A DNA stretch of 64,000 nucleotides from Closterium sp. NIES-65 (lineage: Eukaryota > Streptophyta > Zygnematophyceae > Desmidiales > Closteriaceae): contig CANXME010002675.1 of NCBI GenBank assembly GCA_948144175.1, positions 620,001 to 684,000 of the forward strand, read 5' to 3'. Below the pieces are notes generated by a model. It saw nothing but the letters and a program-made list of their open reading frames with translations, did no database searches and was not told where the DNA came from. Positions 20,152-64,000 of this stretch are shown one piece after another. Position numbers and translations under genes: made by a program. Numbering within the stretch: position 1 is the first letter of the stretch; the number at the start of each line of letters is the position of its first letter.

Positions 20152-20156
20152 TTGTC

Positions 20157-20286
20157 TGTGAAGAATGAGGAATGAAAAAGAGAGGGGTTCACAAGCAAAC
20201 ATTGGGATACATATAGCAAACCCTAAAAGGGTTGTACTCACTATAGAGTACCCCACTGCAGACTAGAGAAACATAATATTCTGACA
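20157..20286 (-). repeat. 3' LTR of element C
   Basis: 130 bp, same length as 29062-29191 and differing at only a few positions (for example CACAAGC versus CACTAGC). It is followed by the purine tract (minus strand) at 20287-20302. Confidence 0.92.
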
Positions 20287-20302
20287 CACCCCCATAGTCA
20301 AA

Positions 20303-20438
20303 TGTCAGAATCAGAAACGAGAATGAATGACTAGAATGAGTGTTGGGTACAAATAGGTCAAACCTAACCCTAGAAATGTGTACCCACTATAGGCTAACCC
20401 ACTGTAGCCTAAACAAGCACATCATACAATGTTTGACA
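20303..20438 (-). repeat. 3' LTR of element B
   Basis: 136 bp, paired with 27404-27539. The adjacent CACCCCCATAGG is the complement of the polypurine tract. Confidence 0.93.
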
Positions 20439-20664
20439 CACCCCCATAGGCAAAGTGGGGGAGAAAAAGGGATCACAAGACCAGTCAAAGCAAAACAAAG
20501 CTCAGGGTGGATCTCAAGGATACCACACAAGTTCCGAGCACAAGCAAGCGGTCACAAGACCAGTTCACATGCAGATTTATAAAAGAACAAGAGATACAGT
20601 AATCACAACCTAGCAAGAGTAAGCATGCAGGTATATATATATAGAGATCACTGTACAAGCAAAG

Positions 20665-23600
20665 TCAAGAAGTGAGCAAATGAGGGACAGTAGGCACGAG
20701 GCCTAGAACAGTACAGAAGCGCTGATGGTCACAAGGCTAAAGCGCCTTAGTGAACACGTCAGCAGTGTTGGCCCGAGTGGCCACGTAACGCAGACAAAGC
20801 TGACCTCGCTGCTGCAGCTCTCGAGCAAGAAAGTAGCGCAGAGCAATGTGCTACGTCCTGTGCTCCAGTCTGTGCTCCCCACACAAGGCAATGGTGGCCT
20901 TGTTGTCGACGTACAGCACTGGAGGAGAACGAGGCTGCTGTCCAAGGTCAGTCAGCAGGTAGGTGAGCCAGCGAAGCTCCTGAGCAGCCATGGCCCCGGC
21001 GTAGATCTCAGCCTCACAGCTGGAGCTGAGAACAGAAGAAGAGCGAGTAGAACGCCAAGAGACAGAGCCAGAGCCAAGACTGAAGGTGTAACCCTGGGAC
21101 GACCGCTGAGTAGCCTGGTCGTCTGCCCAGGAAGCGTCTGAGTGCCCAGTGAGAACAGGCCGGTCTCGCCCTCCAAGCACTAGCCCCATGCCCGACGTAC
21201 TGCACAAGTAGCGCAACACCCTCTTAGCTGCATCCATGTGCTCCTTCCGGTGACGGCCGGGAGCGACATAGCGTGCTAAGATGCTGAGAGGGTATGCAAG
21301 GTCAGGTCGTGTGCAGGTCATCAGGTACATGAGGCAGCCCACAAGCTCTGGATACGGACCACTCGGCTCTACGGACTCATCCGAAGGCAGAGCTGAGAGC
21401 GAGTGTCCCGTAGGCAGAGGAGTGGACTGAGGCAAGGAGTACGTGAACCCGAAGCGTTGAAGGACCTGCTGCACCATGTGTGACTGAGTCAAGGTGATGG
21501 TGCGCCGTGCTCTGTCCCGGGTGATCCGCAAGCCAAGATAGCTTGTCAGTTCACCCAGGTCTGTGCACGTGTGTCTCTTCTGCAGCTCGGACTTCACGTA
21601 GGCGAGTCCAGCAGTGTCAGCTGTGGCAAAGACCAAGTCGTCTACGTACACGAGGATGTAGAACGGCGGCAGCGAGGGGTCGGTGCGTAGAAACAGCGAC
21701 GGGTCAGCAGTAGAAGGAGCGAACCCAAGAGCCGCAAGTGTAGTCCTCAGTGTGTCGTGCCACTCACGTGGCGCCTGGCGGAGACCGTAGACTGGCCGCC
21801 GGAGGCTCCACTGGGTACCAGGAGGGAACGACCCAGTGAAGCCAGGTGGGCGGCGCAGCCAGATCTCCTCGTGCAGGCTGCCCTGCAAAAAAGCTGTGCT
21901 GAAGTCTAGAGAGTGGAGCTCGTAGTCACGCTGAGCGGCGACGTGTAGCAGCATCCGAAGAGTGGTCATCTTCGGGGTCAGGGAGAAGGTCTGGAAGAAG
22001 TCAACTCCCTCTCGCTGACTGAAGCCTCGTGCAACGTAACGCGCCTTGAAGACAGGCGGAGAGCCCGGCGGCCGCTTCACCCTGAAAATCCACATGCCAC
22101 TGACGATGTTCGCCCTAGGTGGGGGAACCTCGTCGACGTAGGTGCCAGTGGACTTCCAAGAAGCCATCTCTGTGTCCATGGCTGACTGCCACTGAGAGGA
22201 TTAGGGACCGGCCATCGCCTCTGCGTAAGAGCGTGGGGTCGGGATGTCTGGTGCATCCGGGTCTCCCTCAGGGGCAACGAGCATGGACACGAGATGGGGC
22301 AAAGCAGCGGCAAGGCAACCAACCTCCTCCTGCTTGTCCTCAAGAACGTCCGTGCCAAGAGCACACTCACCCCCGACGGACGGAGGACAGACAGACTCAG
22401 ACTCAGCAACAAGACTCGCAGCGTAGTCTAGACGACACGCAGCTGCAAAGTTGACAAGCTCAGTGACTAAGGCAGACGCAGCAGCGGACTCAAAGGAAGG
22501 GTCAGTGACAACCGTAGCGAGGAGAAGTGTGAAAGTAGGACTGGCAGCGCGAAGGGTGTCTGACTCCGGGTCAGCAAGCGCAGGAAGAGAGGACGCAGGA
22601 GGCGACGGGAGAGCGACACGCTGCAGAGCAGTGGACTGACGAAGCGCCATCTGGTGAGTGCCTGGGACAGCAGGAGGACGCTGACGCTGGACACGACTAG
22701 CAGTGGTAGCAACACGAACAGGCGACGCTCGACGAGACGCAGGGGACACAGGACGTGAAGCAGGCTCACGTCTCTCAGCTAGACCTCCAGTCGGACCAGT
22801 GTACGGAGTAGGCACAGGGAGTGGGGAGGCAGTCGGTAACTGTGGCTGTGAATGGACAGACGGAGGACACTCAAAGGCAAGAGGAGGACACTGACTAAGA
22901 ACCTGCTGAAGGAGCGGAACGAAGTACGGCCGTGGCCGTGCAGCAACTCTCGAACCAGCAGAAGCTCCAGCGGCAGGGTCCTCAGCACCAGTAGAAGCTC
23001 CACCCTCCGGGTCCTCCACTCCAGCAGCAGCAGCAGCACCTCCAGCAGCAGCACCACCAGCAGCAGCAGCACCTCCAGCACCAGGGTCCTCAGTACGAGC
23101 AGCACCTCCAGCAGCACCGCCAGCAGCAGCAACACCTCCAGCACCAGGGTCCGCAGCACCCGCAGCAGCGTCAGCTCCGGGGACCCCAGCACCAGCAGCT
23201 CCACTCCGGAGACTGATGTGCCGAGCGTACCACTCTCGAAGCTGTGGGGAAGAGGGCGGCTCCCGCCGTGGTGGGGAAACACGAGTACCAACTCCAGTAG
23301 CACCACGAGCCCGAGACGCACCCCGCCGGAGGCTGCAGTACCGTGAGTACCACTCACGGAGCTGCTGCGAAGAGGGAGGTCCTCCAGGCGCCTCACAGTC
23401 AACTGCAACACAACCAGGCTCAGTACCCCCAGACTCAGCAACTCCAGGCTCAGTACCCTCAGACCCAGCACCCCCAGGCTCAGCACCCCCAATCTCAGTA
23501 CCTCCAGACTCAGCACCCCCAGGCTCAGCACCCCCAGTCTCAACACCCCCAGGCTCAGCACCCCCAGGCTCCGCCCGCTCAGGCTCCGCACGCTCAGGCT

Positions 23601-26600
23601 CCGCACGCTCAGGCTCAGCACCCCTAGCAAGACGCGAGTCGACAGCTACCTCGGCAGGCTCAACCGGGTCTACCTGAGAGACACCTGAGAGAGCGGCACC
23701 TTGAGGGGGGAGGGGGTCTACCACTGCAGCACCTGGCGCGAGGAAGAGAGGCGGGGGAGGGAGCGGGGCAGTGCGGTAGGGGAAGAGGCGGTAGAAGGGC
23801 ACGGACTCGTCAAAAGTGACGTCCTGAGAGGGGAAGACGCGGTGCGAGGCGGGGTGGTAAAACTGCTCGCCAGATGCATCCGGGGCAAAGCCAAGAAAGA
23901 CACAGGGAGCAGTGCGGGAGGAGAGCTTGTCCGCAGACGTGTCGCGAACAAAAGCTCGGGATCCCCAGACACGGAAGCGTGACGCATCGCCAACCTCCCC
24001 CGTCCACAGCAGTGTGGGCGAGGTCTCCGGAGCGGAGACACAGGGCCAGAGGTTGAGCTGATGCGCAGCGTACCGGACCGCAAACGGCCACAGAAAGTGG
24101 GGGGCAGCCGCGTGGACTAAGGAGGTACGAGCGACCTCCATGACCAAGCCAATGCGGCGCTCAGCAACCCCATTCTGCTGTGGAGAGGCCGGAAGCGTGA
24201 ACGACTTGCGAATGCCGTGCTCAGCACAGTAGGCTGCCAAGAGGTCGGAGGAGAACTCGCCACCTCTGTCAGAGTGCAAGCGCAGGACAGGAAACTCCGA
24301 GCGAAAACGCTCTCGCAGCTGAAGACGTGCTCTGCTGATCCAAGGGATCAGGACATCAGGGACTTCACCCTTGCTGCGCAAGGGGAAGACCGTGGTGTAG
24401 CGCGAGTAGTCGTCAACGACGATCAAGAAGTATCTCTCCTGGCCCTGACCACGGACGCGGGCTGGGCCCCACACGTCCATGTGGAGCGTCTGCAAAGGAG
24501 CAGTCGTCGGGGGGAACGAGGAGGAGTGAGGGGCAGCGCGCTGCCGCCCCTCGGCACAGGGAAGACAAGGAGGAGCAAGGGAGGGTGGGAGGGGAGGGAG
24601 GACCCAAGGAAGACCAGAGACAAGGTACCGGGCGTGCATGCCCCTAAGGCGTTGCACTGACGGGTGACCAAGTCGGTGGTGCCAGAGGACAGTCTTGTGC
24701 GCTAGAGAGCGACACGAGCAGGGGACAGACAGCTGACCTGACGCAGACGCAGACGCAGACGCCGCTACCTGAGGGGACTCAGTGGTCAGTGTGTACAGGT
24801 CCGACCCCGGCTGCCGAGTGAAGGTAGCCAGGTGACGGCCCGTCCGAGCACACGTGCAGTGTGTCACGCGCTCGTAGGCAGGGGTGAACTGGTGAACACC
24901 CCCATCCTGAAGCGCACAACCCGCCACCAAGTTCGTAGAGAACGAGGGGAGGTGAAGACCTGACAGTGTGCCCGACGGGACAGCAGGACAAGGAAGGAGG
25001 GTGGAGGAGGTCGCAATGACCGGTCCCCCAGAGGGGTCAGCGAGCGAGACAGCGACTGGTCGAGCAAGGGGCTCAAGAGCAGTGCGGTCACGAAAGAAAC
25101 AGCGCGAAGCGCCTGAGTCTATAGTGAAGGTGTGCAGTGCCTCAGTGGACTCAGTAGTACCTGGGGTGGCGGACACACAAGCACCTAGAGCAATAGCCTC
25201 ACCAGTACCTGGGGTAGCAGACACGCAAGCACCTAGGGCGGCAGCCTCACTCGTGCGGATGCCTGGGTCAGGCGGAACACTCAGGTACTGGTCCTCCTCT
25301 CCACTAATAGTCAATGCATACATTGCTTTGAGAATAACATCAAAATCAAGAGCATAGATATCGATATCCTTCTTGAGGAGATCAGCCCACTGAGGGAGCT
25401 CAGGAGCGTCAGGAAACTGAGCACGCCAAGCGTCATCTAGGCGAGAGAAGCAGCGCTGCGCAGTGTACGCCCTCCCGCACGTCTGTCCCTTGCGGCGACC
25501 AGTGCGGATGACGTACGTGCAGCTAAGGCTACCCCCCCCACCCCCGTGCTGTAAGTACCACTCACGAAGCTCCTGGGAGGACTGAGGGTGCTGCGCACTC
25601 TGGCCAGTGCCAGAGCCTCCACGACCACCACCGCCGCCTCCACCATGACCACCACCGCCCCTGCCGCCGCCACGTCCACTGCCGCCACCACCACCGCCCC
25701 CACCCCGGCCACCGCCGCCGCCGCTACCTCCACCACCCCCACCGCTGCCACTAGCCCCTCCAGCCCCGCCACCGCCCCCGCCGCTGCCACCACCCCCACC
25801 ACCGCCTCCCCCGCCGTCACCCCCACCGCCCTTGCCTCCCCTGCCCTTGCCGTTGCGGCGCCCGCTGGGAGCGGACGCAGAGCCGACCTGCTCAGCACCA
25901 AGAAGGTCGACAGCAGCAGCAGAGGCGACAGAGGGGAGGAGGGGGGAGGGGGAACACCCCTCGAAGAAAGGGGTGCGGGGGTCGCCACGAGAGGCACCTA
26001 CAGCTACAATACTCTTCTCAACTGCAAGTAGTTCCTTCTCTAGGGCGGCAATGGTGAGCTCAGTGGGGCAGCGAGCTAGGAAGTGGTCCTTGACTGTACG
26101 CAGAGTGTCAGGGAGGCGGGTGACTAGGTGGTAGAGAGTGAGCCAGAGCGGGGGAGGGTTGGAGGCAAGAAACTCAGCGGGCATGGCTGCACGGAAGCGG
26201 GCATCACTAGTACGGAGGTGAGTGATGAGGTCAGCGACTGTCTGGAAAGCGGACAGGTCGGGGAACAGGTAGGGAAGGGAGAGACAGCCTAGTGCAGCTG
26301 AGGCCGGGGAGGAGTAGCGCGCAACTACAGCAGTGTACAGGGCCTGCGCAGTCTGATGCTGGCCGAAGTGCTCACGCTCATCGACTGGCAGGGAGTTGCG
26401 AATGGCAAAGCGGGCGTGGGCATCGCGAGTCTGCCACTGCGAGCAAGCAGTAGCGGTAGCAGTAGTAGCAGGAGCAGGGACTGTGCCTAGTGCGTGATCG
26501 TACAGCGAGATATCCTCTCTGGCAGTGAGCTGGAGGAACAGGTGCAGATCATCGAGCCAGGTATCAAACTTAATCGGGCGGCCCTCAGTATCGAACGAGA

Positions 26601-26619
26601 GAACTGTAGGGCTAGCCAT
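20665..26619 (-). pseudogene. Element B gag-pol polyprotein with nonsense codons
   Basis: Starts at ATG 26619 (MASPTVLSFDTEG, matching the D start) and stays open for 1472 codons to a TAA at 22201, where D has a tyrosine codon (GPYSSQW). The same frame continues: WIFRVK, YVDD (about 21650), RNase H, a TAG at about 20851 where D has lysine (EHRTKH), another TAG near 20741 where D has alanine, and the final TGA at 20665. Upstream parts: gag (residues 1-230), glycine-rich stretch (about 254-343), DSGA protease (about 502), integrase HHRLGHPS (about 645), HMDVWGP, SDRGGEF and SPQQNGVAE (about 713-820). The zinc-knuckle position has CGRAYTAQRC, lacking the histidine. Each premature stop is a point change, so the decay is recent. 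Confidence 0.93.
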
Positions 26620-26679
26620 AGCTGAAGCAGTAGCAGTGGCAGCAGTAGTAGTAGCAGGAGTAGCAGTAGCAGCAGTGGT

Positions 26680-27310
26680 AGTAGCAGTAGGGCGGCGCGG
26701 CTCGGCTAGGGCGGCGCGGCTCGGCTAGGGCGGCGCGGCTCGGCTACGGCGGCGCGGCTCGGCCGGGTCGCGCGGCTCGGTCGGGTCGCGCGGTTCGGCT
26801 CGGTCCTAGAGGGGCGAGCGCGGGGCCGGGTGGGGCTGCTAAGTGAGAGCGCGGGGCCGTCCACGGCGAGGGCGAGGCCGTGGGGGGCCGTTCGGGGCTA
26901 GCGCGGGGCCGACGGGGTCCGTGAGAGGCTAGCGCGGGGCCGACGGGGGCCTTAGGGGGCTAGCGCGGGGCCGACGGGGGCCTTAGGAGGCTAGCGCGGG
27001 GCCGATCAGGGGCCTTAGGAGGCTAGCGAGGGGCTAGCGCGGGGCCGACGGGGGCCTTAGGAGGCTAGCGCGGGGCCGATCGGGGGCCTTAGGAGGCTAG
27101 CGCGGGGCTAGCGCGGGGCCGACGGGGGCCTTAGGAGGCTAGCGCGGGGCCGATCGGGGGCCGTGAGAGGCTAGCGCGGGGCCACACGGGGCCTTGAGAG
27201 GCTAGCGCCGGGCCGTAAGGGGCCTTAAGAGGGCGACGCGAGGGGCCGTGAGGGGCCTTAAGGGGCGACGCGAGAGGGCCTTAGGGGGCCTTAAGAACGA
27301 GGCGCTCGAG
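26680..27310 (-). repeat. GC-rich tandem array in the 5' leader of element B
   Basis: Units of about 30 bp built on GCTAGCGCGGGGCCGACG with GGGGCCTTAGGAG, preceded by GGCGCGGCTCGGCTAGG units (26690-26760). It lies between the 5' LTR and the gag start, where D carries a different GC-rich array. No coding function is claimed. Confidence 0.85.
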
Positions 27311-27390
27311 GCGCAGGAAAAAGGCGGCGCACGAGGGCGCGGCTAGCGGAAACGGTGGGCCCTATCGTTTCGGTCCTAGGTGGAACCTAG

Positions 27391-27403
27391 GCTCGTAATA
27401 CCA
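27391..27403 (-). other. Primer-binding site of element B
   Basis: Minus strand TGGTATTACGAGC directly beside the 5' LTR. It is a diverged initiator-Met-type site, similar to TGGTATCGAGC in D. Confidence 0.7.
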
Positions 27404-27539
27404 TGTCAGAATCAGAAACGAGAATGAATGACTAGAATGAGTGTTGGGTACAAATAGGTCAAACCTAACCCTAGAAATGTGTACCCACTATAGGCTAACC
27501 CACTGTAGCCTAAACAAGCACATCATACAATGTTTGACA
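27404..27539 (-). repeat. 5' LTR of element B
   Basis: 136 bp, paired with 20303-20438. Followed by the target duplication TCAAA and by sequence of element C. Confidence 0.93.
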
Positions 27540-27544
27540 TCAAA

Positions 27545-29049
27545 GTGGGGTGTAATCAGCACAACAAGCAAAGCACAACAAGCTCTGGGTGGATCACAAT
27601 GTCACCACACATTCTGAGCACAAGTACAAGAAGCAACAGTTCAAAATTCACAAATGTAGGCAAAGCTAGAGGCTTTCATAGAGGGCAAGTGTGGAGGAGG
27701 AGGGACTATGAGATGAGAGGAGGTAGTGGGCGGCAGCTGAAGCTGCTGGCACACGGCGCAACTGGAGCAACTGGCACACGGGCAACTGGAGCAACTAGCA
27801 CACTGGCAACTGGAGCAACTGGCACACGGGCTACTGGAGTAACTGGCTCCGCGACTAACTCTGAGCCGCAGGAGCAACGGACTCATGGGCGACTGGAGCA
27901 ATGGGCTCACGGGCGACTGGCGCAACGGGCTCACGGGCGACTGGCACAACGGTCTCACGGGCGACTGGAGCTGCGGGCTTTACGGCGGCCACCTCCTTCA
28001 ACCTCCCCAAACTATCCCACCCCCAATTCACACACCCCCTACTGCACCCCTAGGTTCACTCACACCCCACCCCCTAGCACCACTCCGTCGACTCCCACAT
28101 ACCCATCCCCCTCAGCGGCAGCTGCAGCAGTGGGAGACAGAGGAGGAGGAGGAGCAGGGGAGACCACACACCCGCCACCCCCCACTCGCCACCCCCAGAC
28201 CCTAACACAGGGCAAGGCAGGATGGCGGGTAGGGAGGTTAAGACGGGGGGGGAGGGGGGAAGGGGGGGGCCAACGCGCGGCCTCCCAGGGCGCCAAAGTA
28301 GGCGGCAGAATGGGCGACACTCGCCCCCCCCCCCCCCCCATGCGGCCCCCTCAGGTCGCCTCGACAGGCGACGGGAAAACAAGGGGGGGGGAGGGGGGGG
28401 GTGGTGCACGGGTCCCTGGTGCGCCGCGCCAGGCGACGAAGCATGGCCGGGGCGGGGCCGGGGCAGGGTCGGGGCAGGGCCGGGGCAGGGCCTCGATAGG
28501 GGCGGCGACGGGGCCGCAAAGGGCGGCGACGGGGCTGGTAGAGGCGGCGACAGGGCCGCTAGAGGCGGCGACGGGGCCGCGAAGAGCGGCGACGAAGCCG
28601 CTAGGGGCGGCGACGGGGCCGGTAGAGGCGGCGACGGGGCCACTAGAGGCGGCGACGGGGCCGCAAAGAGCGGCGACGGGGCCGCTAGGGGCGGCGACGG
28701 GGCCGCGAAGGGCGGCGACGTGGCCGCGAAGGGCGGCGACGGGGCCGCTAGGGGCGGCGACGGGACCGCTAGGGGCGGCGATGGGGCCGCGAAGGGGCCG
28801 CGAGGGGCCTGGAAGGGCGGCGACGCGCCGCGAAGGGGCTGCGAGGGGCCAAGAAGGGCAGCGATGGGGCCGCGAAGGGGCCGCGAGGGGCCTGGAAGGG
28901 CGGCAACGGGGCCGCGAAGGGGCCGCGAGGGGCCTAGAAGGGCGGCGACGGGGCTGCGAAGAGTAGCGCAAGGGGCACGCCACGGGGCGTGCAGCACATA
29001 GAGTAGCAGCGGAAGCAGTTAGGTGGGCCCACAGGCCATGAGCGTAGAT
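27545..29049 (-). other. Non-coding interior of element C
   Basis: No retrotransposon protein motif in any frame. Contents from the left: 3' untranslated region like that of D/H (27545-27620); CAACTGGAGCAACTGGCACACGG-like units (27740-27980); a block with CAGCTGCAGCAGTGGGA followed by GACAGAGGAGGAGG (about 28110-28160) that recurs in elements F and G; poly-G/C runs; and an array of about 21-bp GGCGGCGACGGGGCCGC units (28490-28960). Long open frames here are by-products of base composition. Confidence 0.8.
28490..28970. repeat. GGCGACGGGGCCGC tandem array
   Basis: About twenty degenerate units of 21-22 bp alternating GGCGGCGACGGGG with CCGC(G/T)A(A/G)G. It occupies the 5' leader position of element C. 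Confidence 0.85.
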
Positions 29050-29061
29050 GCTCTGGTAGCA
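29050..29061 (-). other. Primer-binding site of element C
   Basis: Minus strand TGCTACCAGAGC beside the 5' LTR, a two-base variant of the usual TGGTATCAGAGC. Confidence 0.65.
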
Positions 29062-29191
29062 TGTGAAGAATGAGGAATGAAAAAGAGAGGGGTTCACTAG
29101 CAAACATTGGGATAGATATAGCAAACCCTAAAAGGGTTGTACTCACTATAGAGTACCCCACTGCAGACTAGAGAAACATAATATTCTGACA
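29062..29191 (-). repeat. 5' LTR of element C
   Basis: 130 bp, partner of 20157-20286. Followed by the target duplication TTGTC (29192-29196). Confidence 0.92.
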
Positions 29192-29196
29192 TTGTC

Positions 29197-29891
29197 TAGG
29201 CGGAGGAGGAGAGACATATCAAAGGTGTCCTCGACTACTGCGCTTAGTGTGGCGGTGAACCCACATCGCCATGTTGCAGGTGACGTCACGAACGTTGTTT
29301 TTTTGGGTGGCCTTTCCGAGTCAACCTGAGGTGGTTTGCGTAGGGCAGACGGATGGTCCAGAAGACAGTCGGTTTGCCTAGCGCGAAAGTTCGGGGCCAT
29401 AGTTTGGGTTTTTGCGCGGCGCGAGGTCTTGTCGTGGTCCTGAGAGACAGCGTTCTGTGGAGTGTTTGATGGTCTTGCGGGTTTGCAGTAATATTGACGT
29501 CGGCATGAGTCGCGGGGTCATTGCTGATCGTGATGAGAATGAAAGGCTATTTGCTCGCAGCGCGCTCCCTATTCTTGGTTAATGTCCATATCTTGCTGCC
29601 CGTGCAGCAAGGTGGCGCAGAGGTGTGCTTATGAAATTATGCCCTGCTGGCAAAGCAGGGCTTTTCAGGGGTCCATTGGTGTCCCACGCCCCAAAGCACG
29701 ATCATTTTTTTTTTTGGCTTTAAGGAGATCCCTGGAGGAAAGCAGGCACCCTGAGGGGCAGGCGCTTCGTAGCAATATACTCGGTTGTGCAAAGCTCCGC
29801 AAACATTAGATTATGTTTGATTATGCTAAATATCACACATGTTACAATCTGGAATGTCCGTATCGTGTTGCCACGTGTAACCTTCGAGTGC
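29197..29891. other. Host sequence between retrotransposons, unassigned
   Basis: Lies between elements C and F and matches no repeat in the window. Short open frames on both strands (up to about 85 codons) carry no known motif. A T-run stands at 29706-29718. It may belong to a host gene or intergenic region. Confidence 0.4.
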
Positions 29892-29896
29892 GGTTA

Positions 29897-30137
29897 TATC
29901 GAAACTGAAACGAGAATGATCAAGTTTAACTAGGGCCTAGGCTTAGGAGCCTAGGCCCAACTAGGATGTCGAGTAGTTTGTGCCTAGGGTGAGAGTCGAG
30001 AAAGTTGGAAAGGATGGTTTCACTATAGGTTTCGAAGAACATATAGCAAAGGAAACAAATAAGGTGCACCACCAAACAAAGTTTATAATAGCTACACTAA
30101 CTACAGCTATAGGCAGTTACAAATATAAGTTCTGACA
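29897..30137 (-). repeat. 3' LTR of element F
   Basis: 241 bp with few differences from 30926-31166 (for example AAGGTGC versus AAAGTGC, and TAGGCAG versus TAGAGT near the end). Confidence 0.93.
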
Positions 30138-30925
30138 CTCCCCCATAACTGCCTGCAGCAGGTTTTTGTGCAGAATACAACCTGTAGGGGTACACATGCA
30201 AAATAATAAACAAGCAACAGCAGGTACTGCAGGCGGGCTAACACTAGGTGGTCACCCCCTCCATCTCCTCACCCTCCTCCTTCCCTTCCCCCACACTGCT
30301 GCATGAGCAGTAGAGAAGGGGGGAAGAGAGGAGAGGTGGAGGGACGGCTGCTGGTTGCCTCACACCCGCCACCCCGGTGCCACTCCCCCGTCTCCTCCAC
30401 ACCCTCACACCCTCCCCCCCAGCGGCAGCTGCAGCAGTGGGAACGAAAGGAGGAGGAGGGGAAGGGAAGGATACGACCCAACGCTCCAACACCCGCCACC
30501 CCCATACCCTCCCCCCCACGGCTGCAGGGAGACAAAGGAGGAGGGGGTGGGCGGGAAGAAAGCCGCACAGCGGCTACAATGTGTCGGCGCAGGTAGGTCA
30601 GGGGCGGCTGCAGTGAGAGCAGGTGCAGAGAGGCCCGTCGCGTGCCACGAGGCGCACGACGGGTAAGTTTAAGGTAAGGGAACCGTCGTGTGCCTCGGGG
30701 CGCACGACGAGCAGGGCACCGTCGCATGCCACGGGGCGCACGACGGGCAGGTTTAGGGCACCGTTGCGTGCCACGGGGCGCGCGACGGGCAGAGTAGGAG
30801 TCACTCGCCAACCGAGGGCGGGACAATAGAAAATCGCCACGCGCCCTAGGCGCGCGACCGGAAAAACGTAGCAGCGGAAGCATGAGGCGGGCCCACAGGC
30901 CAGGACGTAACTCGCTCTCATAGCA
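30138..30925 (-). other. Non-coding interior of element F
   Basis: Purine tract beside the left LTR, then the block CAGCTGCAGCAGTGGGA followed by GAGGAGGAGG (about 30424-30465) shared with C and G, then repeats of GTGCCACGGGGCGCACGACGG type (about 30630-30860). Open frames are low complexity. Confidence 0.8.
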
Positions 30926-31166
30926 TATCGAAACTGAAACGAGAATGATCAAGTTTAACTAGGGCCTAGGCTTAGGAGCCTAGGCCCAACTAGGATGTCG
31001 AGTAGTTTGTGCCTAGGGTGAGAGTCGAGAAAGTTGGAAAGGATGGTTTCACTATAGGTTTCGAAGAACATATAGCAAAGGAAACAAATAAAGTGCACCA
31101 CCAAACAAAGATTATAATAACTACACTAACTACAGCTACATAGAGTTACAAATATAAGTTCTGACA
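30926..31166 (-). repeat. 5' LTR of element F
   Basis: 241 bp, partner of 29897-30137, followed by the target duplication GGTTA. Confidence 0.93.
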
Positions 31167-31200
31167 GGTTACGGGGCGGTGAAGAGTCGAGACCGTTGAC

Positions 31201-31340
31201 TGTCAGAAACATAGGCGAGAATCAGAAACAGGAAAGAGGGCTTTCACTAGCAGGCAGTTGAGTACATATAGCGAACCTAATTTGGGTTGTACTCGCTATA
31301 GAGTACCCCAATGCAGGCTATACAAAATCACATTCTGACA
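31201..31340 (-). repeat. 3' LTR of element G
   Basis: 140 bp, partner of 40304-40445. Confidence 0.92.
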
Positions 31341-31891
31341 CACCTCCATAGTCAAAGTGGGGTATAATCAGCATAGCAAGCAGTCATAGAGCAGGTTCAC
31401 AAATACCTGCAAAGCTAGAGGCAGTCACAGAGGGCAACAGAGGATGAGGAGAGTCTGTGAGAGGAGTGGAGATACAAGGCAACGAGTAACGCCCCAGACA
31501 CACAGGCAATAGGAACGGCGCGCACGGTGGCTACCAGAGCAGGCAACCTACAGATTACAGGAGTAACTGGCTCCGCGCTAAGCTGCAGGAGCAACGGACC
31601 CACTGGCGACTGGCGCAGCAGGCTCGCTGGGCTACCGGAGTACTCAACCCCCGGACTACTGGCGCTGCTGACGTCACAACAGCTACCTCCGGTCAAACCT
31701 CCCCCAACTGTCCCACACCCCTTTCACACACCCCCTGCTGTACCCCTAGCGCTCCTCACCGCCACCCCCCTCGTACCACTCCGAGAGCTCCAACACATCC
31801 ACCCCCCTCAGCGTCAGCTGCAGCAATGGGAGACAGAGGAGGAGGAGGAGCAGGGGACGGCGCACACACTTGTCACCTCCATACTCGCCAT
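31341..31891 (-). other. Non-coding interior of element G, left part
   Basis: No gene. It carries sequence shared with element C, including GGAGTAACTGGCTCCGCG (about 31560; also about 27836 in C) and the CAGCTGCAGCAATGGGA block. It ends at the target duplication CCCCA of element E (31892-31896). Confidence 0.8.
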
Positions 31892-31896
31892 CCCCA

Positions 31897-32307
31897 TGTT
31901 AAAATATATACTGTGTAGCATGCCAACACATGTGACTGTACACCAATTGTGGTATACAAATGGGTTGGGACTACACCCAACTTTGGGTGTAGTCTTGCAC
32001 TTTGGGGTGCCAATCCACCCAATTGTGGTGGAGCCCCCAAATGCAACCCTCTTGACTTCTGGGTACCTCACTTCCCACAATTGAGGTTCCCCCAAGCCAA
32101 GTGGGCCTAGGGTTGCCTCACTTCTACAAAGTATGGGCAACCCAACCCACTTGACCTATGGTTCCCTCATCCCCCCAAGTGAGGTCAACCCAACCTATGG
32201 TCACTTTGATCCTTCCCTTCCATCCTTCCCTTCCAACCTTTCCTTCCAACCATGTATGCTAGGTTGCCTCTCTAATCCAATCACTTGTTCAATTCACAAT
32301 CTTCACA
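31897..32307 (+). repeat. 5' LTR of element E
   Basis: 411 bp, same length as 39262-39672, with fewer than about ten differences by eye (for example GGTATACAAATGG versus GGTGTACAGTTGG). Confidence 0.94.
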
Positions 32308-32318
32308 TGGTATAGAGC
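32308..32318 (+). other. Primer-binding site of element E
   Basis: TGGTATAGAGC directly after the 5' LTR, one change and one base shorter than the usual plant copia site. Confidence 0.75.
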
Positions 32319-33960
32319 TAGTTGTTCCTAAGCCTTTTCTCTCCCTCCCTCAAAGTTTTTCTTCCCCATAGGCCCACCCCATAGCCACAAACCCCCTATG
32401 TGTGGCTCAACCTAGCACCTCCTTGGCACGCCCTACGCCGTCGCCACTCTTCCCTCCCTCCTTGGCACAACCTACGCGAGTGCATCATCGCCCCCCGTCG
32501 CCGCGACACACCGTCACTGCCCCCCCCCCCCCCCCCCCCCCTTCTTTTTTTTCCGCCGCCGCGCCTTCTCTGGCGCCACCTGCGCATCCCGCCGCCACGC
32601 CTCGTCGCCGCCTCCTCCTCCCCCTGCAGCGACCCCCCGTCGCCGTCTCCCTCCCGCCGCCGCGCCTACTTCGGCGTCGCCCGCGCATCCCTCCACCGCG
32701 ACACCCCGTCGTCGCTTGCCCCTCCCGCTGCCGCGACGTCGCGTCGCCGCCTCCCCCTACCGCCGCCGCGCCTTCCTCGGCACCACCTGCGCATCCCGCC
32801 GTCGCGACGCCCCGTCGTCGCCTCCCGTCCCGCCGCCGCGATTTCGCGTCGCCGCCTGCGCACCCCATCACCGCGACCCCCCTGTCGCCGCCTATGCATC
32901 CCGCCGCCGCGACCCGCTCATCGCCGCCTGCACGATCCGCCGCCGCGACTTCGCGTTGCCGCCTACGCATCGCGCTGCCGCAACCTTCTCGTCGCCGCCT
33001 GCACGACCCGCCGCCGCGAATTCGCTTCGCCGCCTACACGACCCGCTGCCGCGACTTCGCGTCGCCGCCTGCGTATCTCGCCGCTGCAACCTTCTCGTTG
33101 CCGCCTTCACCCCTTGTCGCCACAATCTAAAGTCGCCGCCTGCGGGACCTTTTGCTGCGACGTGCTCGTCGCCGCCCGCACATCTCGTCGCCGCGACCTA
33201 AAAATTGCCGCCCCCGCATCTTACCGCCGCGATCTACTCGTCGCCGCCCGCGCATTTTGCCGCCTCGACTCCCTCGTCGCCACCCGCGCATTTCGCCGCC
33301 GCGCCTTCCTCGTAGCAGCCGCCTCATCCCTCAGCAGTAGCGTCATTGGCAGCAACAGCCCCGCCCACACCTACACATGCGTTCTCCCTCCCACTCCCCC
33401 TTTCCTCTTCCTCTCCTCCCACGCAGCAGCAGCCGAGACACCTCAGCAGCCACAACAGCAACAGCAGCAGCACCGGCAGCGGCGGCAGCAGCGGCAGCAG
33501 CTGCATCCACCATCTTCCTCCCCCTCCTCCCCTCCCTCCCCCTCTCCTCCCTCTCAGCACCATCAGCGGCAGCAGCGGCATCAGCGGCAGCAGCAGCAGC
33601 GGCGGCAGCAGTGGCAGCAGCTACATCCACCATCTTCCTCCCCCCTCCTCCCCTCCCCCCCCCCCCCCTCTCCTCCCTCTCAGCAGCAGCAGCGGCAGCA
33701 ACGGCATCAGCGGCTGCAGCGGCAGTAGCCGCAGCGGCGGCAGCAGCGGCAACAGCTGCATCCACCATCTTCCTCCCCCTCCTCCCCTCCCCCCCCCCCC
33801 CCTCCTCCCTCTACAGCGGCAGCAGCGGTAGCATCGGCAGCAGCGGCAGCAGCAGCAGCAGCGGCAGCATCAGCAGCAGCGGCAGCAGCAGCAGGAGCAG
33901 CCAAAGAAGACCTCCACTCCCCGCAGCAGCACCCCCCCCCCCCTCCCCCCCCCCGGCCCT
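32319..33960 (+). other. Leader of element E with low-complexity runs
   Basis: C-runs (32519-32541), CGCCGCCGCGAC-type repeats (32560-33310) and CAGCAGCGG runs (33430-33900). Very long open frames occur on both strands. A gag N-terminal extension may be encoded here, but no conserved domain starts before about 33960, so the true start codon is uncertain. Confidence 0.6.
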
Positions 33961-36900
33961 CCTCCCTCCAGCAGCCGATGCCGCATTCCTCCACGATCCC
34001 CGCAAATACCTCATCCGCAAGGCGGAGCATGAGGTTGCGGTACATAACTACGACTTCGCGGTAGCGGAACGCGCCAATCGCCTGGCGCTCCTTGATGAAT
34101 ACAATATGGCCATGGCGGACTACCTCCCTCGGAGCATCGCGTGGGCCACTGCTGATAACCGCGCCTGCACCATCCTCCTCGGCGCACTCCCTGGTACCCT
34201 CATGCGCCATTTCCAAGCTCGCGAGATGCGCGCCTCCCTCATCTGGGCCGAGCTCCAGGCGATGTTCGAGCGTCGCAACATCAGCTCTGTCGGCGCCCTG
34301 TTTCAGGAGTACTTCTCCACCACCCTCGCCACTTGTGATGGCGCAGTTGACTACGTGGGGCGCATGCAGGAGGTCGCTGATCGCCTTGCGGCACGCCAAG
34401 CTGCCCTCCCTGAGCCTCTGCAAATCCACCGCCTCCTCTACAACCTCACCTTGGACTACGAGTCCCGCCTCCATGCCTTCACTGAGGCCAACCCCATGGC
34501 CGGCCTCGACGACGTGGTCCAGTGGATCATTGACACGGAGGTCAAGATTTGTACCCCCGTTGTCAACCTTACCACCCCTCAGTCCTCCTCCTCCACCTCC
34601 CTCAACGCTACGCAGCCGCGCAACCAGGGTGGTCGCAGCGGCGGCGGCGGAGGCCGTGGTGGTGGCGGTGGTGGTGGAGGCCGTGGTGGTGGCGGTGGTG
34701 GTAGTGGTGGCCGTGGTGGCCGTGGTGCCGGTGGAGATGGTGCTGGCAGCGCCCCTGCTGGAGGACCTTCCGGTTCTGGTGGTGCTGTGACTCGAGGCGG
34801 ACGCCCTGGCACTCTCCCCCCATCCACATATGTGCGCCGCCATGGTCCCCATGCTGGTACCCCTTGCGGCCAGACCAACCATCCCCCCACCACGTGCTTT
34901 AAGGCACTCGACGACGCCTGGTTTGATCGAGGCAACACTGGCATCCCTCCTCGCTGGAACTCGATCGCACCTCGCCCCACCTTAGTGGATATTCAAACCC
35001 TCCCCTCTTTCCTCCTTGCTCACCCCCGCATGGTTACCCCCTCCCCACCCTCACAGCTGCAGCAGTTTCAGCAGCACCAGCAACAGCAGCACCTGTACTT
35101 CCACCAGCAGCAGCAACAGCCGCAGTTTCTCCAGCCCCAGCAGCCGCCGCCGCCGCAGTTCTTCCAGCCACCGCCACAGCAGCAGCAGCAGTTCCTTCCC
35201 CCACCCTGGCAGCAGCATTCACTCACCTTCGGCATGGCGGCCATGGCTGCTCATACCTCCCTTCCTCCTCCTCCCCCCTGGGGTTCCCTCCCCTCCCCCC
35301 TCCCAAGTGTTCCCGACACTTCTGGTAGATTCCTTGGTAATATCACTGTTGCACCGTCCGTTGCTGCCATGTATCCCTCTGCTATCAATGAGACTTCGTT
35401 TCAGTATCCCGTCCCACCCCCTCATCCCTCTTCTCCCACCCTGGACTTTGTCCTTGACAGTGGAGCCACTGAAACCGCACTGAAAGATGCTGGCACTCTC
35501 ACCCCACTACCACTTCCCACTCAAGTTCATGGAGCTGATTCCAGCTTTCCATTCCATGCACTCACCTTTCCACCCTCCCTTGCACTGCCTTCCCCTCCGG
35601 TAAGGTCACAGGTCTCCACATCCCCACTCTCCGCAACAACCTCCTCTCCCACCGTGAGCTCCAAGGTGTTGGTATCACTGCCATTTACCCCGGCTATGCC
35701 AATTACTGTGATCTCTACCCGACCTCCTCCGGTCGCTTCCTTCTCCGCATTCCGCTTTGCCCCCGCACTCGCCTCTACACACTCCGCACACCTCGCACAT
35801 CTTTCTGCCACGTCACCACTCGTTCCGATGCTTCCACCGGTCCACCTCCTCCTCCTTTACTTCCCCCTTCCCCTCCCACTCAAGTAACCTCTTCTCCCTC
35901 CCCACCATCCCCCTCCTCCCCTCCCGTTCCTTCCTTTACCCCATCTCCCTCCTCCGCTGCACTCTCCCACCCTGCTGTCCTCTTACACCACAGAATCGGC
36001 CATCCCAACTTCACCGCCCTTCGCACCACAGTCACCTCTCGCCTCCTCCGCAGCCTTCCTCCCGTCTTACCTCCCCTTTCGTCCTCCCCCCCCCCCCCCA
36101 TGCCCTTCATGCACTCACGGCAAGCTCAAACAGTCCGCCCACCACAGTCATCCCACCTTTGCTGCCGCCCCCATTGACCTTGTGCACATGGACCTCTGGG
36201 GCCCCTATCCCATCCGCTCCCGCCAGAGGCATCGGTGCATGCTCGTCCTCGTTGACGACCACAGCCGGTACTCCACCAACTTCTTCCTTCACACGAAAGA
36301 CCAGGTGCCGGCAGTGGTCATCAACTGGGCCGAACAGTGCCGCAATCACTTCAAACGCCCCATTGGCCTCCTTCACTCTGATGGTGGGGGTGAGTTCATC
36401 AATAACACCCTTGCCACATACTGCGCCACCTACGGCATCCAACAGACCTCCACCCTTCCCCATTCCCCTCAGCAGAACGGCATTGCTGAGAGCCGCATTT
36501 GTGAGATCACCAAGATTGCTCGCTGTCTCATTGCTCATGCCTCCACCCCTCCTTCCCTTTGGAGCTATGCCCTCCTCCACGCCGCTCTTCTCCTTAATCT
36601 CCGCTCCCACCCTCAGCATCCTTCCTCCTCCCCTACAGAGCTCTGGTCCAACGCAAAACCCGACGCTGCCGGCCTTCGCGTTTGGGGCTGCAAGGCCTTC
36701 GTTCTCATCCCACCCGCCGACCGCTCCCGCGCCGCTGGCAAGCTTGCTCCTCGCGCCCTGGAATGCGTTTACCTTGGGCACAATCGCAACTCCCTAGGCT
36801 ACCTCTTCCTCCACCGTCCCACCAATCGCCTCATCCGCAGCGGCGACGTCGTCTTCGACGAATCCGTCCCCTATTACTCCTCTCCTCCCCCTGATCCTCT

Positions 36901-37114
36901 CCCTCCTCCCACTCGTCCCCTTGCTTGGATCGACACCGTCCTCCCGCCCCTTCTCCCTCCAGCCCCTCTCCTCCCACTCGTCGCAGCTCCGCTCCCGCCC
37001 TCCTCCTCCGCCAATGTCTACAACCATGCCGCACCCGCTTCCCCCGCTCACTCGGCCGCACCCCCTCACCCCCCTCCCTCCCCCTCTCCCTCTCCCTCCT
37101 TCCAGCAGCCGGGT

Positions 37115-37152
<38 letters not shown>

Positions 37153-39218
37153 GCAGCAGCAACAGCAGCAGCAGCAGCAACCGGGACAGCAGCCGGGGCA
37201 ACAGCAGCAGCAGCAACCGGGCCAGCAGCAGCACCAGCAGCAGCAGCCGGGCCAGCAGTAGCAGCAGCCGGGCCAGGAGGAGCAGTAGCAGCGGCAGCCG
37301 GGACAGCAGCAGCAGCAGCGGCAGCCGCAGCAGCAGCTGCCTCAGCAGCAGCAGCCTCAACAGCCTCAGCAGCCGCAGCACCAACACGGTCAGCCGCAGC
37401 CGCAGCAACAAGGGCAGCAGCTTCAGCAGCACCAGCGACAGCAGCGGCGTCGGGCCACCTCCCGTTCCTCCTCCTTCCTCCTCCCTTACATCCATACCCG
37501 CTCTGTGGACAAAATCCTTGGGGCTCCTCCTCTTGCCTCCATTCAGCTCCTTGAGGACTCCCATGAGGAGTTTCTTAACATTCAGGAGCACACTCCTCTC
37601 CTTGCCGCCCTCTACCTTGACTTCCTGGGCTTTCCGGTCCTTGGCGCCACCACTACCCCCACCATCTTCACTCCCTCCACCTTCCAGGAAGCCATCACCT
37701 GCCCTGATGCGGATAAATGGATGGCAGCGATCTTCCTCAAGTGTGAGGCTTTCATTCGCAACGACTCCTTTGTCGATGTCCCTCTCCCTGCTGGCGCTAA
37801 TCTCGTTGACGGCAAATGGGTCTTTCGGGTGAAGAAGCTGCCGGGTGAGGAACCAGTATACAAGACCCGCTACTGCGCCAAGGGGTTCACGCAGACCTGG
37901 GCTGAGGACTACTGGTTCACCTACGCCCCCATCGCCAAACAACCCACCCTTCGCGCCGCCATGGACATTGGTGCACGTGACGACATGGAGATCGACTCCA
38001 TGGACGTCTCCAATGCGTTCCTGCAGGGTGACCTGCATGAGCGCATTTTCCTTCGGCGGCCCCCCGGGTTCCACGCAGCCTTTCCCGAGAACACTGTCTG
38101 GCAGCTGCGTCGCCCCGTCTACGGCTTGAAGCCGGCGCCGCGTGAGTGGCATGCGAAGCTGGCTTCCACCTTGGGGTCTCTTGGCTTCTCTGCTTCCCAC
38201 TCCGACGCCAGCCTCTTCATCCGCTCCTCCCCCCGCCGCTTCTTCATTCTAGTATATGTCGACGACATGATCTTGCTCTCTGACACCAAGGCCGACATGG
38301 AGCAGGTGAAGCTGTCGCTGCAGCAGTGGCTCAAGTGCAAGGACCTTGGCGGCCTCACTCACTACCTCGGCATGACCATCACGCGCAACCGCCCTTCTCG
38401 CACAATTACCCTCTCCGAGTCCCATTACATCAGGCAGGTCTTGGAGAAGTTCGACATGACGCAGGCCAAGCCTGTCTCCACCCCGCTCCCCTTTGGTCAC
38501 CAACTCGCTCCACCCACCTCCCCCACCTCCTCCCCCCACCCCTACGCCGAGCTCGTTGGGTCCTTGATGTACGCAATGATGTGCACCCGCCCCGACCTTG
38601 CCTACCCCCTACAGCGTGCTTGCTCACTTTGTCCGCACCGGTCGTCACTCTGAGGAGCACTGGAAAGCTGCCAAGCGGGTCCTCCACTACCTTCCCGGGA
38701 CCACGGACCTTGCCCTCACCCTCGGCGGCCCTTCCCGTCCCCTTCTCTCGGGCTTCAGTGACTCCTCCTGGGCCGACACGCAGCCGGACCGCCGCTCCTC
38801 CCAGGGCTACGGCTTCACCCTTGGCAGCAGCCTCATCAGCTGGCGCTCCACCCGCTCCTCCGCTATCTCTCTCTCCACCTGCGAGGTAGAGCTCTACGCT
38901 GGCACCATGGCCGCCCACGAGTCGCGCTGGCTCTACTTCCTTCTTGCAGAGCTTGGCGCCCCCTAGACGTGCCCCACTCTCTGGTGCGACAACGCCAGCA
39001 CCATCCATCTCACTCAGGACCCCGTCTATCACGCCCGCTCCAAGCACATCGAACTCCGCTACTTCTTCGTTCGCGAACTCGTCCAGAAGGGCCTCCTTGC
39101 CGTTCTCAAGATTGCAACCGAGGCCAACTTGGCCGACATCTTCACTAACGCCCTCCTTCGCCCCGCGCACTCTGCTTTCCTCCGCCTCATTGGCCTTGCT
39201 CGCCCGGGCGCCCCTTGA
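33377..39218 (+). pseudogene. Element E gag-pol polyprotein, broken
   Basis: A frame open from 33377 to 35887 holds gag (about 33980-34570: NRLALLDEYNMAMADYLP), a glycine-rich stretch, a zinc-knuckle-like CGQTNHPPTTC (about 34866) and DSGAT protease (about 35458). Homology then moves to another frame (GLHIPTLRNNLL, about 35612) and returns after a C-run near 36090, where CPSC, HMDLWGP, HSDGGGEF and SPQQNGIAE of integrase follow (36100-36490). Two TAG codons (37259, 37286) interrupt a glutamine-rich linker. RT has WVFRVK and YVDD (about 38260). A frameshift near 38612 and a TAG at 38964 precede the end of RNase H at 39218. Several stops sit where CAG glutamine is expected. The element is dead. 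Confidence 0.92.
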
Positions 39219-39261
39219 CTCAGGGGTTGTTCTCTTCTTGTGTTAGCATGCTAAGGAGTTG
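39219..39261 (+). other. 3' untranslated stretch of element E
   Basis: 43 bases between the polyprotein end and the 3' LTR. AAGGAGTTG next to the LTR is the likely, weak polypurine tract. Confidence 0.5.
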
Positions 39262-39672
39262 TGTTAAAATATATATTGTGTAGCATGCCAACACATGTGA
39301 CTGTACACCAATTGTGGTGTACAGTTGGGTTGGGACTACACCCAACTTTGGGTGTAGTCTTGCACTTTGGGGTGCCAATCCACCCAATTGTGGTGGAGCC
39401 CCCAAATGCAACCCTCTTGACTTGTGGGTACCTCACTTCCCACAATTGAGGTTCCCCCAAGCCAAGTGGGCCTAGGGTTGCCTCACATCTACAAAGTATG
39501 GGCAACCCAACCCACTTGACCTATGGTTCCCTCATCCCCCCAAGTGAGGTCAACCCAACCTATGGTCACTTTGATCCTTCCCTTCCATCCTTTCCTTCCA
39601 ACCTTTCCTTCCAACCATGTATGCTAGGTTGCCTCTCTAATCCAATCACTTGTTCAATTCACAATCTTCACA
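39262..39672 (+). repeat. 3' LTR of element E
   Basis: 411 bp, partner of 31897-32307, followed by the target duplication CCCCA at 39673-39677. Confidence 0.94.
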
Positions 39673-39677
39673 CCCCA

Positions 39678-40303
39678 AACCCTAACACAGGCAGCACGCG
39701 GCAGGAGAGAGTGCTGCAGCGGAGGCGGTGCTCGTGGTGAAGCGGGACGGTGCGCAGCGATGGGGCAAGCTGTACGGGCCGCGCAGGGGCCTGGCGCGGG
39801 CCGTACGAACCTCGCGCGGGTTGTACGGGCTGCACGCGGGCCTGGTGCCGCCCATACGAGTCGCTTGCGGGCCTGGCGCAGGCCGTACGGGCCCCCCGCG
39901 GGCCTGGCGCAGCCCATACGAGTCGCGCGCGGGCCTGGGGCAGGCCGTACGAGCCGCGCGCGGGCGTGGAGCAGGCCATACAGGCCGCGCGCGGGCCTGG
40001 CGTAGGTCGCGCTAGCCGCTTGGGGCGACGAGGGGCAACGCGCGGGTCCCTGGGGGCGCTGGGATGGGCGACGGGGGGCGACGCGCGGGTCGACGAGGCA
40101 GAAAACCGCTGCGCGCCTCGGGGCGCATGGCGGGCAGAAAACCGCCGCGCGCCCTGAGCGCTCGGCGGGCAGGAAACCGTCATGCGCCCCGAGCGTGTGG
40201 CGGGAAGAAAAAACGTCGCGCTCCCCGTGGCGCGCGACAGACAGGACAGCAGCGGAAGCTAACGGTGGGCCCACAGGCCAGGAGCGTAACCGTTCTGATG
40301 GCA
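39678..40303 (-). repeat. Right interior of element G with GC-rich array
   Basis: No gene. GGGCCTGGCGCAGGCCGTACG-like units of about 40-45 bp (39780-40010) are followed by CGCGCCTCGGGGCGC units. It occupies the 5' leader position of G. The primer-like site TGCCATCAGAAC (minus strand, 40292-40303) adjoins the LTR. Confidence 0.75.
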
Positions 40304-40445
40304 TGTCAGAAACATAGGCGAGAATCAGAAACTGGAAAGAGGGCTTTAACTAGCAGGTAGTTGAGTACATATAGCAAACCCTAATTCGGGCTGTACTCGC
40401 TATGGAGTACCCCACTGCAGGCTAGACAAACATCACATTCTGACA
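40304..40445 (-). repeat. 5' LTR of element G
   Basis: 142 bp, partner of 31201-31340, followed by TTGAC at 40446-40450. Confidence 0.92.
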
Positions 40446-56513: not shown

Positions 56514-56644
56514 TGTCAGAACATATAGCTTACTTGTTTCTGTAGGCTATAGTGGGGTATCCCATAAGGGGTACAACCCAATCAGGGTTTCCTATTTGTA
56601 CTCACTTCGTTCATAGTCATTTCATCCTCGTTCATTTCTTCTCA
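56514..56644 (+). repeat. 5' LTR of element D
   Basis: 131 bp, TGTCAGAACATATAG...CTTCTCA. The motifs GGCTATAGTGGGGTA and GGGGTACAACCC are shared in diverged form with the LTRs of B, C, G and H. Confidence 0.93.
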
Positions 56645-56655
56645 TGGTATCGAGC
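56645..56655 (+). other. Primer-binding site of element D
   Basis: TGGTATCGAGC directly after the 5' LTR, one base shorter than the usual TGGTATCAGAGC. Confidence 0.8.
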
Positions 56656-56769
56656 AGGTTCCCCTGTGGGAACTGTTCGTAGGGCCCACCACCGCTACCG
56701 CTTAACTTTTTTTTTCTGCCCGGAGCGCGCTACGGGCCCTCGTACTTCCTTTTTTTTCGATCTGCCCTA

Positions 56770-57640: not shown

Positions 57641-57756
57641 TCCTGCTCCTGCGTGGCTGCTGCTGCTCGGAGGCGTGCGCAGCTGCTGTTCTGCCGAGTT
57701 GCTGAGCCGCTGTGCTACCCGACTCTTCGTGCCCGGTGAGACAATCAGCTGCTGCA

Positions 57757-58821: not shown

Positions 58822-58853
<32 letters not shown>

Positions 58854-63675: not shown

Positions 63676-63887
63676 CCTTGCTTGTACCTTCGCCTATATA
63701 TACTCTTGTTCTTGCTTGTTTGCCTCTTGTATATCTCTATATATGATCTTGCATGTGAACTGGCCTTCTGGCCTTTGAACTTGTGCTCGGAATGCGTGGT
63801 GACTTTGTGATCCACCCTGAGCTTTGCTTTGCTTTGCTTGACTGGTCTTGTGACCCCTTGTTCTCCCCCACTTTGCCTATGGGGGTG
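63676..63887 (+). other. 3' untranslated region and polypurine tract of element D
   Basis: Matches 9155-9370 of element H and, in part, the interior of C. It ends with TATGGGGGTG directly before the 3' LTR. Confidence 0.85.
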
Positions 63888-64000
63888 TGTCAGAACATAT
63901 AGCTTACTTGTTTCTGTAGGCTATAGTGGGGTATCCCATAAGGGGTACAACCCAATCAGGGTTTCCTATTTGTACTCACTTCGTTCATAGTCATTTCATC
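63888..64000 (+). repeat. 3' LTR of element D, cut by the window end
   Basis: 113 bases identical to 56514-56626. The remaining 18 bases or so and the right target duplication are not visible. Confidence 0.93.

Follow-up and report, generated by a model that had tools for sequence, protein, structure and literature searches.

The stretch analysed here, called the window throughout, is 64 kb of Closterium sp. NIES-65 DNA (G000:C2377:620001-684000), and genome searches covered the 874-Mb eukaryote assembly of 2400 contigs to which it belongs. It holds three short non-coding long terminal repeat (LTR) elements, C, F and G, all on the minus strand. An earlier note on this DNA had described them as elements with paired LTRs, a primer site, a purine tract and an exact 5-bp target duplication, but no retrotransposon protein, about 1.8, 1.27 and 1.46 kb long, and had suggested that they travel as passengers of the copia lineage of their neighbours B, D and H. 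The description holds in all its parts: each element shows paired LTRs, a primer-binding site (PBS), a polypurine tract (PPT) and an exact 5-bp duplication, as expected of LTR retrotransposons, and the guest-free sizes, obtained by subtracting guest lengths with no guest-free sequence assembled, are 1793 bp for C, 1270 bp for F and 1464 bp for G. The duplications of D, E and G were read by eye from the sequence, those of C and F by script. The leaders listed below contain an antisense copy of initiator methionine tRNA (tRNA-iMet); their z-scores refer to the part beyond the first 12 nt, and their ends are approximate.

29062..29191, minus strand: C 5' LTR, 130 bp; duplication TTGTC at 29192-29196
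28996..29061, minus strand: C PBS and antisense tRNA-iMet leader; 54/75 tRNA letters in line, z 5.2
28083..28203, minus strand: C shared block, from the match to the block sequence
27540..27660, minus strand: C 3' untranslated region common to D and H, from sequence comparison
20287..20296, minus strand: C terminal PPT TATGGGGGTG, from a tract scan
20157..20286, minus strand: C 3' LTR; duplication TTGTC at 20152-20156
30926..31166, minus strand: F 5' LTR, 241 bp; duplication GGTTA at 31167-31171
30870..30925, minus strand: F PBS and antisense tRNA-iMet leader; 48/75 tRNA letters, z 4.8
30392..30510, minus strand: F shared block; internal PPT copy TATGGGGGTG at 30497-30506
30256..30344, minus strand: F long hairpin downstream of the block, from the fold of 30255-30362
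30138..30147, minus strand: F terminal PPT TATGGGGGAG, from a tract scan
29897..30137, minus strand: F 3' LTR; duplication GGTTA at 29892-29896
40304..40445, minus strand: G 5' LTR, 142 bp; duplication TTGAC at 40446-40450
40238..40303, minus strand: G PBS and antisense tRNA-iMet leader; 52/75 tRNA letters, z 6.7
31775..31885, minus strand: G shared block; internal PPT copy TATGGAGGTG at 31874-31883
31341..31350, minus strand: G terminal PPT TATGGAGGTG, from a tract scan
31201..31340, minus strand: G 3' LTR; duplication TTGAC at 31196-31200

The two LTRs of an element are identical at 128/130 sites in C, at 236/239 aligned sites (4 gap columns) in F and at 131/140 (3 gap columns) in G, and those of F end in TG...TA, not TG...CA. 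The hairpin of F, with arms of ~35-40 bases between block and 3' LTR, lies in a stretch (30255-30362) that folds at -59.9 kcal/mol (z -3.5; 0/200 shuffles as low). In the window's G the variant TATGGAGGTG occupies both the internal (31874) and the terminal (31341) tract, which might reflect copying between tracts; it is also found at the terminal tract of one other listed G copy (L060).

C, F and G belong to a large family, with thousands of block copies genome-wide. An exact PPT followed by a C/G-type LTR start occurs 1,238 times in the genome. For each LTR query the best 40 candidates were scored, and the best LTR matches were fetched (30 for C, 30 for G and 20 for F, 80 loci in total). By BLAST the block is present in 21/30 C-LTR, 26/30 G-LTR and 15/20 F-LTR loci, some of which are the two LTRs of one element; of the loci without it, L002, L032 and L033 have a guest between LTR and block and L009 holds a solo LTR. 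A genome search with a count of target duplications had been proposed in the earlier note; made on these best LTR matches, it gave an exact 5-bp duplication in 19 of 27 listed two-LTR elements, with LTR ends movable by up to 4 bases and some segmental duplicates included. The 27 elements measure 965-1650 bp, 26 of them more than 1000 bp. Among four block copies drawn from the genome list, three revealed further LTR subtypes and one (L096) had no recognised LTR, and C2 copies look mosaic, with a C-like 3' half and a 5' leader closer to that of G. A solo C-type LTR flanked on both sides by CTGCG lies at L009:1501-1631, a sign of LTR-LTR recombination deleting C internals.

The block itself, CAGCTGCAGCARTGGGA, has three mismatch-free matches in the window, one in each element, at 28119 in C, 30426 in F and 31815 in G; all three carry it, as the earlier note had said. 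Allowing up to 3 mismatches gives 16 matches across the 64 kb, where 0.82 would be expected. Its 25-mer core has 3,846 exact copies genome-wide (1854+1992) and the reversed control none. On the contigs covered by both the listing of ends and the listing of cores lie 42 C/G-type 3' ends; in 12 of these an exact core lies 503-598 bp upstream in the same orientation (0.06 expected from a flat-density estimate), none has one on the wrong strand or side, and the other 30 have no exact core there. In an alignment of 12 natural copies, drawn from C, C2, G and F, identity between C/G and F is high in two islands, one directly behind the PBS (two 40-column windows at 63-79%) and one around the block (four windows at 60-74%), and elsewhere is mostly below 50% per window, with a few isolated windows at 50-63%; C and G are additionally alike in LTR and 3' region. 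The block is a genuine conserved module at a fixed place. Simple-sequence convergence, which the earlier note had raised as a way in which its grouping could fail, is rejected by the number of exact cores, the empty reversed control and the fixed position.

The block may serve in cis as a module specific to the group, perhaps by helping to prime the plus strand, because about half of its copies hold an exact copy of the PPT. It is possible, and we put this forward tentatively, that the block region offers a second place to prime the plus strand, comparable to the extra PPTs near the 3' LTR of Sireviruses, which according to an excerpt of PMC2829016 have multiple tracts within 0.5 kb of that LTR. 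Exact TATGGGGGTG lies within 110 nt upstream of the core in 21/39 distinct block copies (41 distinct segments were left, of which 39 had enough flank to be scanned), and of the seven TATGGGGGTG tracts in the window, with A or G allowed at the sixth letter, five stand before 3' LTR starts and two lie in the F and G blocks. However, 18/39 copies have no exact tract, the C copies carry the variant TCTGGGGGTG or TTTGGGGGTG, the region is G-rich, which makes a resemblance easier, and a tract does not account for the core, which is the best conserved part. Less likely still, and in our view improbable, is that the block acts through RNA folding as a signal for packaging or dimerisation, a role that the earlier note had suggested as possible. 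A constant distance from the 3' LTR in otherwise different elements would suit such a signal. However, none of 19 consensus pairs is changed on both sides, in an alignment of 33/41 segments whose columns were picked by an exact 11-mer, so that invariance there arises by construction, and from which copies without the 11-mer were dropped. The block shows no fold excess (z -1.6 in F, -1.0 in C and +1.4 in G), pairs no more than expected with leader or tRNA, and lacks an exact copy in both D and H. Pairing of the 3' region with tRNA, as in Ty3, shows no excess either, and Rfam at a loose E-value returned for seven loci only miRNA-type matches far below gathering.

The relation of C, F and G to protein-coding elements can be read from their neighbours. 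D and H, presumably Ty1/copia elements from the look of their sequence, are autonomous-type copias whose open reading frames were listed and compared with one another; E is another copia.

20303..27539, minus strand: D, autonomous-type copia nested in C; duplication TCAAA; leader from 27403 downwards, 56/75 tRNA letters
56514..64000, plus strand: H, autonomous-type copia, 3' LTR cut by the window end; leader from 56645, 49/75 tRNA letters; PPT at 63878-63887
31897..39672, plus strand: E, nested in G; duplication CCCCA; leader without antisense tRNA (z -0.3)

The D/H lineage is hugely amplified: all 150 scored matches to the RNase H end of H, from 61,287 first-look candidates, are at 100%, and the autonomous 3' region followed by PPT and LTR start occurs 22,560 times genome-wide. 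The two LTRs of D are identical at 135/135 compared sites. C and G have LTR type, 3' region and PPT in common with D and H; for C, the D/H 3' region with its TATGGGGGTG tract had been noted before and is borne out by comparison and tract scan, as is the likeness of its LTR to that of D, which proves to be a layout common to C/G and D/H. Genome-wide pattern counts put a C-type LTR start behind the autonomous 3' region in 5 places and a G-type start in none, although PPT-plus-LTR starts of C/G type number 1,238. None of the five turned out to be an autonomous carrier of a C LTR: the LTRs of L082 and L086 are H-like, L085 continues into an H-like LTR in inverted orientation, L084 consists of two neighbouring elements, first an H-like end and then one of C2 type, and in L083 an H pol fragment has come to adjoin a C2-type LTR, where the two share their 3' region, through a tandem rearrangement of local extent. 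Full-length copies with C/G LTRs and a gag-pol of their own, on whose absence the earlier note had let its proposal depend, were thus not found. L083 and L089 are part of a cluster of near-identical C2-type 3' ends at ~744-845 kb of G000:C852, with others on C520; in the copy read, the 3' region common to both is where the H pol fragment meets the C2 end, and the two LTR copies show no difference over 137 letters. In the reverse check, 5/80 loci have a D/H-type RNase H end no more than 1.5 kb upstream of a C, G or F LTR and in the same orientation. At four of them the copia's own LTR lies in between (L002, which is D inside the window's C, and L009, L045 and L066, where its own PPT does so too); at L068 the end is 821 bp from an F copy that has two LTRs and its own duplication, the intervening stretch not having been read. 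No retrotransposon coding was found in the short elements at the loci looked at, where pol matches belong to neighbours, hosts or guests.

In the LTR tree that had also been proposed (19 rows), the six autonomous LTRs lie on one side of a branch with support 90/99, although some LTR ends are a few bases off, 11/16 inner branches have weak support and the bootstrap had yet to converge. Since the autonomous LTRs are separated in this way, the passengers look like a sister group of some age and not like recent deletions. The view that C, F and G are recent internal deletions of individual D/H-type copias, arisen independently and without a signal of their own, is already disfavoured and quite unlikely: in its favour, C and G do have the D/H 3' region and PPT, and in one rearranged cluster the shared 3' region links an H pol fragment with an LTR of C2 type; against it, the tree parts the LTRs of the passengers from the autonomous ones by one branch, passengers have the block and the TGCTATCAGAGC site in common with one another and not with D/H, and the pol matches in the fetched loci, as far as examined, belong to other elements. 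F resembles C and G mainly in leader and block, its LTR and 3' region being different. The single related group of the earlier note stands, its C and G branches having LTR layout, PPT and 3' region in common with D and H; the case is weaker for F, whose helper may be another copia branch. Its proposal of a B/D-type helper survives for D/H, given the common cis features and the lack of any autonomous C/G-LTR carrier among those found, but not for B, which was rejected as a member of the lineage and as helper: its pol reaches only ~26-40% to D/H-type loci, its LTR is distinct and its leader lacks the shared sequence.

From the PBS on, the leader reproduces the genome's own tRNA-iMet in antisense, collinearly and at nearly full length. 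Its reverse complement resembles tRNA-iMet, and the tRNA-iMet genes of this genome resemble the plant form. There are 25 exact and 7 one-mismatch iMet-like places in the genome, and ARAGORN called both fetched copies tRNA-Met(CAT). Aligned with antisense iMet plus CCA, 15 leaders match 48-61/75 letters in line, through the T, anticodon and D arms. When only the part past nt 12 is tested, all 33 passenger-type leaders (47-62/75 letters) reach p<0.01 against dinucleotide shuffles, as do 6/11 autonomous-type leaders (39-56/75), with 4 more at p<0.05 and 1 not significant; leader type was assigned by PBS form, and related copies are not independent. These tests used iMet as the sole tRNA, with sense and reversed controls that match far less (best sense p 0.04, two rows), and the copias B and E fail them. 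The energy of the leader-tRNA duplex has z -3.0 to -7.7 in 9/9 lineage leaders, against +0.8 in E and 0.0 in B. In C_win, both F leaders, the window's G and C2_L090 the alignment lacks 7 anticodon-loop letters, leaving the GTGGGCCC motif. A GGGCCC...CTTCCGCT-like motif behind the PBS is best kept in the passengers and D; GGGCCC as a dimerisation palindrome was set aside because the tRNA anticodon arm explains the motif, although a palindrome role may remain. A hairpin behind the PBS is present in G-type and autonomous leaders and not in F (mononucleotide shuffles, mean z -1.4 over 44). F copies read TGC or TGG at PBS letters 1-3, and TGG, found in 2/9 readable F leaders, is the form expected from a CCA-ended primer. 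It is very improbable that the likeness has no tRNA origin and only reflects a G+C-rich leader and short PBS inherited from a common ancestor, for although 5/11 autonomous-type leaders have p >= 0.01, the matches run collinearly through all three arms in passengers, D and H, the controls are far weaker, and E and B fail. The antisense iMet leader, being present in D and H as well, appears a better candidate for a shared handle than the block.

We therefore favour, at a probability of roughly 70%, the reading that C, F and G are a large non-autonomous group resembling terminal-repeat retrotransposons in miniature (TRIMs), which would be mobilised by D/H-type Gag-Pol through common cis cues. For C and G, judged by sequence, a passenger status is well supported. 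The RNA of C, F and G would be packaged and reverse-transcribed by D/H-type Gag-Pol, with tRNA-iMet, which fits the PBS, as the likely primer, and the product inserted by D/H integrase; we infer use of this machinery because the passengers present the same cues, namely an extended contact with the tRNA, their plus-strand primer and their LTR ends. Several points weigh against this reading. The autonomous leaders match the tRNA less well than those of the passengers (median 50 vs 55 letters), 1/11 not significantly, and an LTR element outside the lineage (in L011) has an iMet-like PBS and a weak match (p 0.04). The priming site is not identical, passengers mostly having TGCTATCAGAGC and D/H TGGTATCGAGC, TGGTATAGAGC or TGGTATTACGAGC, and F differs from D/H in LTR and 3' region. 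The 80 loci are close relatives and not a random sample, with segmental duplicates or haplotype copies among them (L032/L033, L020/L022, L049/L051/L052 and L040/L041), and in 18/80 BLAST did not find the block. Finally, the shared features could be ancestry without present use.

As for the origin of the leader, it is most likely that a reverse transcriptase copied its primer tRNA past the usual stop, since reverse transcription through the primer would account for the collinearity; selection for extra tRNA contacts, as in Ty1, would be the alternative. A bolder scenario, to which we give somewhat less than even odds, is that the lineage absorbed its whole primer: reverse transcriptase would have read tRNA-iMet to its 5' end, and the antisense copy would have become a primer-and-packaging handle for helpers and passengers alike, better kept in the passengers.

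Comparison with known systems, drawn here from excerpts of the cited papers, places the group close to several of them. TRIMs have short LTRs, PBS and PPT but no proteins, are thought to move in trans and are known from green algae, a lycophyte and land plants (PMC10886601; for algae and a lycophyte also PMC4717578). C, F and G likewise lack coding capacity; however, at 1.27-1.8 kb (1270-1793 bp in the window) they exceed the <1000-bp limit of PMC10886601, and they add the shared block and the near-full-length antisense tRNA leader. They recall Helenus and Ajax, which are non-autonomous LTR elements linked to small-RNA genes and, in plant and fungal Helenus and in Ajax, have 5-bp duplications as here (PMC10886601). 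Helenus carries a tRNA-like sequence inside its LTR (PMC10886601), whereas no tRNA was found in the window and the tRNA likeness is antisense, downstream of the LTR and in line with the PBS. A 5S rRNA sequence as in Cassandra LTRs and a hammerhead ribozyme as in retrozymes were both looked for with Rfam, which matched nothing in the window at gathering score. Ty1 and Ty3 also use a tRNA-iMet primer with contacts beyond the acceptor end (PMC4974528), and a Ty1-like extended PBS is present here as judged by sequence and duplex energy; Ty1 makes separate contacts to the T and D arms (PMC4974528), whereas we see one collinear antisense copy through the anticodon arm, common to putative helper and passengers. 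For ta-TRIM, lennie was proposed as candidate helper from shared LTR ends and an 8-base PBS (PMC4558846); here a ~50-60-letter tRNA match, a shared 3' region and genome-wide exclusion counts can be added. Sireviruses resemble the group in their extra PPTs close to the 3' LTR, but these have the octamer AGGGGGAG and belong to coding Ty1/copia elements (PMC2829016), whereas the D and H of the window have no extra exact tract. A full-length antisense tRNA leader was not found in a literature search that included few subscription papers, and its novelty is not proven.

Some further observations concern the surroundings. A complete LTR element of only 347 bp (139 + 69 + 139 bp; duplication GCCCA) lies at L024:216-562, with relatives in L004, L011 and L072; its internal part consists of a PBS, a stretch like a tRNA T arm (GGATTCGAATCC, or GGGTTCGAATCC in L004) and a PPT. 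ARAGORN called no tRNA in it, and its LTR end resembles a tRNA D arm. An E LTR is joined to a G-like block fragment at L003:1-378 and L031:2122-2499 (97% identical), in the window's G and beside another C copy of the same contig, which may reflect duplication, recombination or repeated insertion. The region 43757-56479 of the window is partly of lower G+C and contains a long internal duplication of ~97% identity.

How helpers recognise LTR elements that encode no protein is an open question, and helpers have rarely been identified, according to the excerpted text of PMC4558846. In this genome a putative helper and its passengers have one long cis feature in common that is absent from the other copias of the window, and it is accompanied by a conserved block confined to the passengers and by large copy numbers. 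The leader suggests that a retroelement can copy in a whole primer tRNA, an event that would directly explain the conserved motifs of the leader.

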